Shown piece by piece: positions 1,521-4,723 of a DNA stretch of 64,000 bases. A model generated the notes under the pieces. The model was given only the letters and a program-made list of their open reading frames with translations. It was not told where the DNA came from and made no database searches. Position 1 is the stretch's first letter, and each line of letters opens with the position of its first letter. The translations under genes were made by a program, and so were the position numbers. The stretch comes from Halobacteriales archaeon YIM A00013 (GTDB lineage Archaea; Halobacteriota; Halobacteria; Halobacteriales; Haloarculaceae), in the NCBI GenBank assembly GCA_025041195.1, contig JAKCFM010000001.1, positions 2,356,001-2,420,000 on the forward strand, in the 5' to 3' direction.

Positions 1521-2132
1521 TCAGTTTTCGTTCGATAGCCAGGTTTCGGGCATCTGAATGACGTAATGGCCGTTTTCCTGGAGGGCAATGATATACTCTT
1601 CTCTGCCGTAGAGTTCCATCAAATTGAGCTCATACTGCCCGGGTTCGACGATCTTGATCGACTCGAACTGATCGTTGAGTTCGGCTCTGAGTTCGGCGAG
1701 ATCGGGTTGTTCACCGGTCGGTTCGCGAATCACGCGCCCGTCGCTTGGCGGCGGTGATGGTCCTGTCGGAGTGGAATCGTCGGTCTCGGGGAGTTGATCA
1801 GGATGGACGAACTCGGATCGAGCCGTTGCCTGTGCCGAATCTTCGGGTCGTTCGGGAGCAGCGGACGCAGACTCAGATTGTTCTGTCTCTGTAGTGTCGC
1901 TGGACTCAGTGTGCTGTCCAGTCATCAACTCTCGCATCATCGACGTGGCACGGCCCACGTGGGTACCGACGGCTCCTCCCCTGGGTTGGGGTGGTTCTTC
2001 GGTGACGCCATCGGCGTCCGAATCTTCCGGCTTAAACTGAAACGTTGTGCCGCCACAATCCGGACAGCCCGACAACATCTCCTTTGAACCATCTCCAAAT
2101 ACGCATCCGCAGTTCGTACACTGGTGTGGCAT
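1521..2132 (-). CDS. oapC: OapC/ArvC-like zinc-ribbon protein
   Basis: This 203-residue protein begins with a zinc ribbon: C5-x2-C8 (CTNCGC) and a second knuckle CPDCGG near residue 23. A low-complexity acidic, Ser/Thr/Pro-rich linker follows, then a folded C-terminal domain (about residues 140-200). It is the last gene of the leftward set oapA-oapB-oapC. In Haloferax this trio flanks an orc gene at an origin (hence 'origin-associated protein'), and the homologues are also called ArvA/B/C after their role in extracellular vesicle formation. Family and context match; the exact biochemical role of the zinc ribbon is unknown. Confidence 0.8.
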   Translation of the reverse strand: MPHQCTNCGCVFGDGSKEMLSGCPDCGGTTFQFKPEDSDADGVTEEPPQPRGGAVGTHVGRATSMMRELMTGQHTESSDTTETEQSESASAAPERPEDSAQATARSEFVHPDQLPETDDSTPTGPSPPPSDGRVIREPTGEQPDLAELRAELNDQFESIKIVEPGQYELNLMELYGREEYIIALQENGHYVIQMPETWLSNEN

Positions 2133-2150: not shown

Positions 2151-2525
2151 TTACTGGGTTACGAGTGCTCGAATCAAGTTTTCGTCCTTGTGAAGCGTCT
2201 CGATGCGGTTCGCTGGTCCTATCACGGTCAGTTTGTTCGGCGGGTTGCGCCCGAACAGACGGCTGAACAGTCCTGGTTGGCTCTCCTGTTGGGGGTAGCT
2301 CTCGATTTCAATCCCGGTAAACTCGTCGGGACTGATCTCATTCATCGTCACTTCGATGAGCTTTGACTCCTCGTCAGGAGAGAGTCCTTCTTCAAGGATG
2401 ACGATGTTGCCGTCGCGGACACCATCGATAATCAACCGGATTTTTTCCATGCTCCGGAGGCTCTGCATCCGCTCTCGACTAACGAGATCGATCTGCACCC
2501 CATCAGTCATCGTTATGTCAGCCAT
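2151..2525 (-). CDS. oapB: DUF2073 family protein OapB/ArvB
   Basis: This 124-residue protein opens MADITMTDGVQIDLVSRERM, typical of DUF2073 proteins found beside Era-like archaeal GTPases. It is predicted soluble, with a mixed alpha/beta pattern and a basic loop near FSRLFGRNPPNKLTVIGPA. It sits 5 bp after the GTPase gene and 18 bp before the zinc-ribbon gene, so the three form one operon. The constant pairing suggests it acts with the GTPase, perhaps as effector or regulator; that is inference. Confidence 0.82.
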   Translation of the reverse strand: MADITMTDGVQIDLVSRERMQSLRSMEKIRLIIDGVRDGNIVILEEGLSPDEESKLIEVTMNEISPDEFTGIEIESYPQQESQPGLFSRLFGRNPPNKLTVIGPANRIETLHKDENLIRALVTQ

Positions 2526-2530
2526 CTAGT

Positions 2531-3748
2531 TCACCCAAAGTACTCCGCTATCTTATCGTAGACCTCCTCCATATTTTCTCCTTCTAGTGCAGACAGTGGG
2601 ATCACCTCGTGTTGTGGGAACGCATTGACGATACGTTGAATGCTTGCATCGTCAAGATCGATCTTGTTCGCGAAGATCAAGACCGGAAGATCACGACTCT
2701 CGATGATACCGACGAGCATTGTGTTCACCTGTGTGAACGGATCGCTCGTGCTATCAAGGACGTACACCACGCCGTCGACGTCCTCACGCAACCAGTGCAT
2801 CGCTTCTGCGACGCCTTCAGTTGCCTCACGAGAACGCCGGACGGCGTCCTCTTTGTTCATATCGTGTTCGAGAAATTCGTTGTAATCGACTTTTGTCGTG
2901 ACGCCCGGTGTGTCCACGATGTCGATCGTCACTGTCGAGCCGTTTCGTTTTATCTCGACGTTCTCCTTGCGGCGGGCTCGCCTGGTTTCGTGTGGAACGT
3001 GACTTTCGGGACCGACCGCATCGCCAGTCCAGTCGCGCGCGATCCGATTGGCGAGCGTCGTGTTGTGAACTACGAGCCCTGAGCCTGTGGTGAACGTGTG
3101 GTGTTCGGGGACGGTCAGATCGTAAATGTACCCCGTGTATGACGTGGGTTCGATAGCACGCACGGTGTCCCAGGTCAGTGAATAGTCCGCGACGGGGGCT
3201 GCGCGCGAGGCGTGTGCTACTGCACCGCCATCGGTGGACAGTCGAGTGTCATCCGTGAACAGTCGAGATGGTTGTGTCGAAACGGAAGCCACAGTGGCTC
3301 CCACTGATAGCTCGCGGGCTGGAATCTGTGTTGGCCCCTCACTACCGGCGACGATAAACGGATGTGCAGGGCTCACTACCACGTCTCTGCCCGTTTGTGT
3401 CTCAACCCGGAACAGCTGGCCGTCGTAGGACTGGCGGAACACGTGCGAGACGGTCGCCGGAACGATCTGCTCGGATTCCGTCAACGCTGGGACCCGAATG
3501 CCGGCGTCCGCACAGGAAAGCCAGGTCTCGTTGGAAGCAGAGCTCACATCGGTGGCATCCGGACACCGTCGTTCGGCGGTTGAGAACACCGACTCTATTG
3601 GCATTCGGGTACCATCCGCGAGCAACACCTCCTCAGTTGCCCTGAGACACTTTCCTGCGTTCGGTGGCCCATAAATGCCTATCCGCCTCGGCTCGCCCCC
3701 CGAGAACAGTCGTGAAATACTGTCTTTTATGCTCGCTATCAGACCCAT
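2531..3748 (-). CDS. oapA: Era-like GTPase OapA/ArvA interrupted by a mini-intein
   Basis: The precursor is 405 residues. Residues 1-33 are the N-extein ending in the P-loop GPPNAGK. Residues 34-229 are an intein, and residue 230 onward (TTLANRI) completes the Walker A motif. After splicing the host would be about 209 residues, a Ras/Era-type GTPase with DTPG (G3) in VDIVDTPGV and the G4 motif NKID in FANKIDLDD. In haloarchaea this GTPase lies beside the origin and orc gene, and its homologue ArvA is needed for extracellular vesicle formation. GTP binding requires the intact P-loop, so activity should depend on splicing. Confidence 0.9.
   Translation of the reverse strand: MGLIASIKDSISRLFSGGEPRRIGIYGPPNAGKCLRATEEVLLADGTRMPIESVFSTAERRCPDATDVSSASNETWLSCADAGIRVPALTESEQIVPATVSHVFRQSYDGQLFRVETQTGRDVVVSPAHPFIVAGSEGPTQIPARELSVGATVASVSTQPSRLFTDDTRLSTDGGAVAHASRAAPVADYSLTWDTVRAIEPTSYTGYIYDLTVPEHHTFTTGSGLVVHNTTLANRIARDWTGDAVGPESHVPHETRRARRKENVEIKRNGSTVTIDIVDTPGVTTKVDYNEFLEHDMNKEDAVRRSREATEGVAEAMHWLREDVDGVVYVLDSTSDPFTQVNTMLVGIIESRDLPVLIFANKIDLDDASIQRIVNAFPQHEVIPLSALEGENMEEVYDKIAEYFG
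3062..3649 (-). other. Mini-intein (196 residues) in the GTPase P-loop
   Basis: The element begins with Cys34 directly after the Walker A Lys (GPPNAGK/C) and ends with the His-Asn pair followed by Thr as +1 residue (VVHN/TTLANRI). Block A is CLRATEEVLLADGTRMPIES. Block B is the SPAHPFIV segment, with the usual His. Block F is YDLTVPEHHTFTTGSG. At 196 residues and with no LAGLIDADG motif visible, it lacks a homing endonuclease domain. The boundary codons are AAG (Lys) then TGT (Cys) at 3652-3647. Such splicing elements are common in haloarchaeal replication proteins, but one in this GTPase is less familiar to me. Confidence 0.9.
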
Positions 3749-4046
3749 CCTAACGCGCTCCTCCCACGGCCAGTGGCCGCGTATACCCCAATACCCAAGC
3801 CGATGTACTTAAGCGTGCGTCAGACAACCATATTTTAGCTTTGGTATTATATTTGCTACGTTTCATATGTGGTCCTATTTCAATCGGGCTACCTTCGATT
3901 AATTGCTCGGGCCCCATTGTATTATCAGTTGGTTTTCAGTGGACCTGAAAGTGGTCTAGGTCGTGTAATACCTGCGATCGCTGTTCTCGATCTGTGTGCA
4001 GAGTTACCGACAGGATATCTGTAGTTTACGTGACGTCTCACCGTTA

Positions 4047-4075
4047 CCCCCCCACCCCTTCGTTTCCACTGGAAC
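4047..4075 (-). repeat. Origin recognition box 1 with G-run
   Basis: Read on the minus strand this is GTTCCAGTGGAAACGAAGGG followed by GT and seven G. It matches box 2 almost exactly in the opposite orientation. The TTCCAGTGGAAAC core plus GGGGT is the haloarchaeal ORB pattern bound by Orc1, and the trailing G-string is a halophile-specific extension. Confidence 0.85.
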
Positions 4076-4129
4076 GCTCACAGCCGTCTCCGCAACCAAC
4101 GAAAATCGGTTGTATCTGACGGTAACTAG

Positions 4130-4300
4130 TGGTTTTTCGGCGTGTTTGCGGTTGAAAGATATTGAACTAGCGCTAGTTAGCTTAGCGAAAAAACGAACTA
4201 GCTAGAAAGCAGCCTAGAAATAAAGAAAATAAAATAGTGCGTTTTCTTTCTCTTCCACGGTTGTGGTTTAGGCTCTTATCTAATAAAGATTCCCCTATCT
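4130..4300. other. AT-rich duplex-unwinding region of the origin
   Basis: This stretch between the inverted boxes is strongly AT-rich, with runs such as GAAATAAAGAAAATAAAATA and short CTAG-type repeats (GCTAGTTAGC, GAACTAGCTAG). It is the obvious candidate for initial strand opening. Limits are approximate and assigned by base composition only. Confidence 0.65.
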
Positions 4301-4348
4301 AGCTAGCGTCGAGGGTGGAGGGGGGACCCCCACCCCCGTTGATTTCGA

Positions 4349-4376
4349 CTCCAGTGGAAACGAAGGGGTGGGGGGG
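4349..4376 (+). repeat. Origin recognition box 2 with G-run
   Basis: CTCCAGTGGAAACGAAGGGG then T and seven G on the plus strand. It is the inverted partner of box 1 across the AT-rich region. A preceding cluster of G and C runs (GGGGGACCCCCACCCCC at about 4321-4337) may form further structure. Confidence 0.85.
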
Positions 4377-4689
4377 TCTAGTGTGGGCTGGTAGCAAGCA
4401 CCGTGTCAACTTACCGCATTCTAGCAGATCAGTCTCCGCAACGGGACGTTCATCAATCAAACTGTAACTCCTGAAATGATTGCTACCGTCACCAGGTAGA
4501 TGCCTATTGCCAACCTTATTGAACGGGATGGGTCTGTACACCGACCCACCATAACCGACTGAACCATAACGCTTAATTAGGATCTCTACCTGTTGTTCCT
4601 CTGCGTCAGGTGGACATCGGATGTTCAACCGACACGGTGTAGACACGCTATATCGATAGATTACCACGGATATGAAGATTGCGCGTCCC

Positions 4690-4712
4690 GTTTCCACCTG
4701 AAACGGAGGGGT
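4690..4712 (+). repeat. Divergent origin box upstream of orc1
   Basis: GTTTCCACCTGAAACGGAGG then GGT. It keeps the dyad TTTCCA/TGAAA and the GAGGGGT tail but lacks the long G-run. It ends 11 bp before the orc1 start, so Orc1 binding here could also autoregulate orc1 transcription; that is inference. Confidence 0.7.
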
Positions 4713-4723
4713 ATGTGTAAGGA

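Follow-up and report, generated by a model that had tools for sequence, protein, structure and literature searches.

The closest described systems are the P-loop inteins of archaeal NTPases, known from Pyrococcus RadA, CDC21/MCM, RFC and VMA. They are class 1 inteins located at or beside the Walker A motif, they occur both as mini-inteins and in endonuclease-bearing forms, and their +1 Ser or Thr is itself a residue of the P-loop. The intein of archaeal IF-2 (NCBIfam PRK14845), which also has a GTPase as its host, sits in the P-loop as well. The location of inteins at P-loops is a recognised pattern (PMC5874633). Among 118 halobacterial genomes, Soucy et al. (2014) described 24 intein alleles in 13 genes, with a patchy distribution, full and mini forms, and horizontal movement within Halobacteria (PMC4071816), and neither ArvA/OapA nor any other GTPase appears among the 13 host genes in Table 1 of that paper.

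Here we describe an intein in the Walker A motif of the GTPase ArvA/OapA, found in a 64,000-nucleotide stretch (hereafter the window) of the genome of Halobacteriales archaeon YIM A00013. It shares with the P-loop inteins above the class, the position, the two forms and the use of a P-loop residue at +1, and like the halobacterial alleles of Soucy et al. it is patchily distributed and has moved horizontally. Its host sets it apart from the archaeal NTPase inteins, ArvA being a small vesicle-forming GTPase and not an ATPase of replication or repair. The role of ArvA in driving the formation of extracellular vesicles has been shown for Haloferax volcanii only (PMC10927574). Our searches of openly accessible papers listed no report of an intein at this site, and the vesicle study PMC10927574 does not use the word "intein" in its main text. 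The ArvA Walker A site therefore appears to be unreported, while the class of P-loop inteins is well known. The element in the window is, with high probability, a splicing-competent class 1 mini-intein descended from a mobile, LAGLIDADG-bearing intein whose endonuclease has been lost.

The arvA gene and its neighbourhood

The open reading frame at 2531-3748 on the reverse strand encodes ArvA/OapA interrupted by a 196-aa class 1 intein without an endonuclease. Its 405 codons read MGLIASIKDSISRLFSGGEPRRIGIYGPPNAGK, then the intein CLRATEE...GLVVHN, then TTLANRIARDWTG..., so that a 33-aa N-extein (3650-3748) and a 176-aa C-extein (2531-3061, with the stop codon) add up to a spliced GTPase of 209 aa. 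The N-extein consists of the N-terminal helix and the first half of Walker A, ending in GPPNAGK. The C-extein starts with the Walker A Thr as +1 residue and contains the G3 (DTPG), G4 (NKID) and G5 (SAL) motifs, in agreement with the Pfam models GTP_EFTU/MMR_HSR1.

In addition to the GTPase motifs, the gene neighbourhood identifies the protein as ArvA/OapA. On the same strand, the next genes are arvB/oapB (2151-2525, reverse strand; Pfam OapB, 9.7e-42) and arvC/oapC (1521-2132, reverse strand; Pfam OapC, 7.2e-28), and on the other side of arvA the adjacent, divergent gene is orc1/cdc6, as seen with both Pfam and NCBIfam. This arrangement agrees with the arvA-arvB-arvC operon known from H. volcanii (PMC10927574).

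The gap between arvA and orc1 (3749-4723) contains a perfect 28-nt inverted pair (4046-4073 and 4350-4377, ACCCCCCCACCCCTTCGTTTCCACTGGA) and a second inverted pair of 31 nt with 71% identity (4598-4628 and 4679-4709). Both pairs resemble haloarchaeal origin (ORB) repeats, and because of this resemblance the gap is probably a replication origin.

Structure and splicing residues of the intein

The intein occupies 3062-3649 (reverse strand), that is, 588 nt or 196 codons, from TGT (Cys1, 3649-3647) to AAC (the terminal Asn, 3064-3062). It is flanked by GIYGPPNAGK and TTLANRI, and the junction lies between the Lys and the Thr of Walker A (GPPNAGK/C...HN/TTLANRI). The Pfam Intein_splicing model matched the window protein with an E value of 1.5e-17 and 64.3 bits (cut-off 35.8), and the NCBIfam end models intein_Nterm and intein_Cterm matched at 5.2e-9 and 1.8e-6. 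The residues expected of a class 1 intein are all present, namely Cys1, the SPAHP motif of block B, the YDLTV..HHTF motif of block F, His195-Asn196 and the +1 Thr, and the HINT fold was recovered by Pfam, AlphaFold2 and Foldseek alike. Among the 22 intein sequences compared, all contained Cys1, [ST]PxHP, His-Asn and the +1 Thr; the strict block F pattern was found in 19, and the other three carried small variants of the same motif. No LAGLIDADG domain was detected in the window protein with Pfam, while relatives with the same insertion site have one. In its place is a linker of 29 residues (precursor residues 160-188; 3185-3271, reverse strand), where the alignment gives the full-length relatives about 270 residues more. 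The first-pass annotation of the window had proposed a mini-intein inside Walker A with intact splicing residues and without a homing endonuclease, and our results bear this out, with coordinates exact to the codon.

The AlphaFold2 model of the whole precursor, built on 10 aligned sequences, was confident in the intein, where blocks of 10 residues mostly scored 80-96 over about residues 34-159 and 190-229. The pLDDT was under 50 in the linker (residues 160-184) and in the GTPase part, so the model gives no usable GTPase part or junction geometry. The top PDB matches in Foldseek were intein structures, several of them from P-loop hosts, with PhoCDC21-1 (8.8e-14) and TvoVMA (3.8e-13) followed by PabCDC21-1 and PhoRadA among the best, all at a low identity of 20-27%. 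The best NCBIfam match was the archaeal IF-2 intein (PRK14845; 58 bits, residues 25-154), far below the equivalog cut-off of that model and with a host different from ArvA.

A HINT-fold domain alone is no proof of splicing, and the insert could in principle be a lineage-specific insertion or a Hedgehog-like/BIL domain that is kept in the mature GTPase. The His-Asn end, the +1 Thr and the matches to both intein end models argue against this, as does the placement exactly at the Lys-Thr junction of Walker A, which in intein-free orthologues lies within an uninterrupted GPPNAGKTT. We consider such a retained domain scarcely credible.

Distribution of the ArvA intein

The ArvA precursor found a match in 390 of 392 Halobacteriales genomes (E ≤ 0.001; a few of these weak), and the same site was filled by an intein in 17 of the 392, comprising 16 recognised by an exact match to the junction (GPPN[A/V]GK with Cys as the next residue) and one genome, G139, whose contig starts inside the intein and carries only the 3' part. 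Eight of the 17 are mini-inteins of 183-213 aa (the window and L005-L011), one retains an endonuclease remnant (L012, 275 aa), seven are full-length with an endonuclease (L013, L014 and L016-L020; 466-482 aa), and one lies on a truncated contig (L015). In Halocatena, most likely the genus of the window, the intein was present in 7/7 genomes, a count in which one species is probably represented twice, as the ArvA matches of G982 and G283 have identical coordinates. The Halocatena carriers include Halocatena marina, H. pleomorpha and 'Actinarchaeum halophilum' YIM 93972 (in current taxonomy Halocatena halophila), the last of which has the closest sequence to the window (93%). Further named carriers are YIM A00010, Halomarina halobia, Natronomonas aquatica and Natronosalvus hydrolyticus.

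The GTDB species collection contained 17 stretches with the same kind of junction pattern. The carriers named above come from this set, and one of its stretches (L034) breaks off with its contig right behind the junction. This count is a lower bound, because two of the three inteins from Nanoarchaeota-type genomes escape the pattern. These three were found in 279 genomes of the phylum of L041, a carrier that is a metagenome-assembled genome (MAG) labelled Pacearchaeota; L041, L076 and L077 have full-length inteins at the same site, preceded by GPPNAGK, GPPNSGK and GPPNGGK, respectively. The L041 protein matched 242 of the 279 genomes (E ≤ 1e-20), nearly all through its GTPase part. Outside the order, a phylum-level search of 392 genomes with L041 as query returned no intein-bearing ArvA at E ≤ 1e-60, a threshold at which mini-inteins are invisible. 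The junction pattern matched no stretch in the viral collection, where a divergent copy would be missed.

An isolated or chance insert was rejected, since homologous inteins fill the same site in many genomes. The first-pass annotation had held that the site would not be novel if a known intein family filled it in many haloarchaeal OapA proteins. A single family does fill it, both in 17/392 Halobacteriales genomes and among Nanoarchaeota-type genomes, but the published list of haloarchaeal alleles (PMC4071816) does not include it.

A single mobile family

The best matches of the window intein were ArvA inteins of other Halocatena, with 84% identity to the nearest relative and 50-51% to the next three (173-190 bits). 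The best match in another gene, the MCM intein of its own genome, reached 35% over 144 aa and 67 bits. Between haloarchaeal and Nanoarchaeota-type full-length ArvA inteins, the identity was 32-36% over about 474 aa with best scores of 268-294 bits, while ArvA inteins scored at most 80 bits against the non-ArvA inteins tested, a set from which L101 (in fact ArvA of G283) was left out and in which several rows repeat one and the same MCM or RNA polymerase gene. This difference in scores makes it unlikely that the Nanoarchaeota inteins arose independently at the ArvA site. On these alignments, the ArvA inteins of Halobacteria and of Nanoarchaeota-type genomes are one family, but an old one. A recent jump between Halobacteria and Nanoarchaeota is not claimed, as the inteins are only 32-36% identical.

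The extein and intein trees disagreed. The inteins of L013 and L016 paired at 100/100, while their exteins fell into different supported groups (97/93 and 99/95), showing that the intein was transferred between genera. The inteins of L041 and L076 also paired (100/95), yet the L041 extein grouped with the empty L078 (99/97). The six Halocatena exteins formed one clade (100/100), and the six Halocatena inteins formed no single supported clade in the intein tree; in both trees many deep forks are unsupported, and in the 22-row intein tree the mini-inteins occupy less than half of the alignment columns. Judged by its single site, homologous inteins, patchy occurrence and horizontal movement, the ArvA P-loop intein is a homing-type mobile allele.

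Loss of the endonuclease

The inteins at the ArvA site represent several stages, from the full form of about 470 aa through the 275-aa remnant of L012 to the mini-inteins. Pfam LAGLIDADG_3 was detected in the full-length copies scanned (L013, L018 and L041), and this domain is a putative homing endonuclease for the empty arvA site. The L012 remnant keeps only sequence past the endonuclease core, and the window and the other mini-inteins retain a short linker surrounding a conserved DGG. L012 belongs to the clade of the Halocatena exteins, so that stepwise loss of the endonuclease within Halocatena is probable, perhaps more than once. Two related MAGs also differ in this region: in L038 (2115-3356), 267 codons present in L040 are absent in frame, while the flanks are identical at 627/636 and 655/672 nt (97-99%). 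It looks as if a mini-intein had been born recently here, although L038 comes from a metagenome and its clean deletion could have been introduced during assembly.

Selection on the intein and exteins

Between the window and G227, dN/dS was 0.026 in the exteins (209 codons), 0.177 in the splicing domain (167) and 0.295 in the linker (22). In most other pairs synonymous divergence is close to saturation, so that the dN/dS analysis depends mainly on the pairs L001-L005 and L007-L008. For the same genome pair, the MCM mini-inteins gave 0.107 and 0.257 and the MCM exteins 0.007. By these values, purifying selection on the ArvA splicing domain is about as strong as on the MCM mini-inteins of this genome pair. 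It would suffice to maintain splicing, and the comparison with these MCM inteins gave no sign of an added constraint that could point to regulation. The mini-intein in Walker A of MCM (cdc21) from the window's genome resembles the ArvA intein in its P-loop site, its lack of an endonuclease and its similar constraint, and differs from it in sequence, as given above.

The MCM gene of the window's genome (G000, C1:599313-600614, L002) contains two inteins, neither of them with an endonuclease; the first lies in Walker A (GDPGTGK/C..HN/SQLL) and the second after ELDKMR. Elsewhere in this genome, a gene that resembles RNA polymerase subunit A'' (C1:2067203-2068522, L004) carries an intein that seems to include an endonuclease region, and intein-like matches at C1:429965-431869 (L092-L094) lie within a 1813-aa open frame. 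The haloarchaeal draft genome G360 has 24 matches to PF14890, an unusually large number, with several per gene.

Splicing and the function of ArvA

In the proposed mechanism, the 405-aa precursor would be made and Cys1 would attack the peptide bond that follows the Lys of the P-loop. The N-extein would then pass to the +1 Thr, also a P-loop residue, and cyclisation of the terminal Asn, aided by the penultimate His, would free the 196-aa intein. The product would be the 209-aa GTPase with an intact GPPNAGKTT. As the +1 nucleophile is the P-loop Thr, a working GTPase would arise only after splicing. The Walker A Thr of GTPases coordinates Mg, and the use of this residue as the +1 nucleophile explains why this point of Walker A tolerates an intein. 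The N-terminal helix of ArvA is thought by the authors of the vesicle study to reach the membrane (PMC10927574), and the 33-residue N-extein includes this putative membrane-reaching helix. Since the intein follows the helix and the Lys, splicing would both close the P-loop and join the helix to the nucleotide-binding domain. The occurrence and efficiency of splicing are here predicted from sequence, as is the inactivity of the unspliced precursor, which would be unable to bind GTP. In agreement with the first-pass annotation, we infer that GTP binding depends on splicing from the insertion site and from the search of the window's genome, which contained no second, intein-free ArvA at E ≤ 0.01.

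The arvA gene of H. volcanii is not essential, its knockout being viable with slightly faster growth (PMC10927574). A poorly splicing intein could therefore be tolerated, which counts against the reading of a splicing-competent intein and in favour of a decaying one, with splicing lost or slow in the strain of the window and ArvA effectively inactive. However, the catalytic residues are all intact and the frame is open, and purifying selection acts on the splicing domain as well as on the exteins, the latter being nearly unchanged between the window and G227 (pN 0.004). Decay is thus very unlikely.

The first-pass annotation had also suggested that splicing could couple ArvA activity to conditions such as salt or redox. 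In a wider form of this idea, the intein would have been kept for a splicing reaction that is sensitive to salt, redox or developmental state and that gates vesicle formation in Halocatena. Environment-dependent splicing at functional sites is known: the P-loop mini-intein of RadA, which lacks a homing endonuclease, splices conditionally, and salt-dependent splicing of halophile inteins appears in titles of the reference list of the same paper (PMC5790916). Halocatena contains hypha- and spore-forming haloarchaea (PMC10067837), in a paper whose main text mentions neither intein, GTPase nor vesicle. Besides Cys1, Cys29 and Cys46 are common to all six Halocatena sequences compared, which is only a lead, as Cys46 occurs in most relatives too (W-x(1,2)-C near the N-terminal end, 17/22) and Cys29 is also found in L017 from outside Halocatena. 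The presence of the intein in 7/7 Halocatena genomes would fit a regulatory role, but fixation in the genus is also expected from one old invasion followed by endonuclease loss, and a full-length copy exists in Halomarina halobia, outside the genus. As the MCM mini-inteins of the same genome pair are constrained to an equal degree, the ArvA intein bears no mark of a regulatory element. A conditional switch is accordingly improbable, and its more specific version, a post-translational gate in which salt, redox (through Cys1, Cys29 and Cys46) or developmental state would time the joining of helix and P-loop, and hence vesicles or differentiation-linked membrane remodelling, is slightly more so. 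The salt or redox switch is without positive evidence and stands unsupported.

The reading of a splicing-competent mini-intein at the end of its mobile life accounts for the persistence of the element in Halocatena. A non-homing intein in a conserved loop would be lost only by exact deletion and would have to keep splicing, so that no regulatory role is needed. The mini-intein of the window is most likely the end stage of the homing cycle.

Implications

The ArvA site adds an apparently unreported intein location outside the usual hosts of replication, repair and nucleotide metabolism. This single site displays every stage, with endonuclease-bearing, remnant and mini forms in Halobacteria and full-length forms only in Nanoarchaeota-type genomes. 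Surveys of ArvA that filter by length lose the intein-bearing proteins, as would apply to the 2024 vesicle study, whose ArvA reference set included only hits under 250 aa (PMC10927574). When an intein-bearing ArvA is expressed, splicing is to be expected. If splicing were conditional after all, the intein would offer a rare handle on the control of vesicle formation in archaea.
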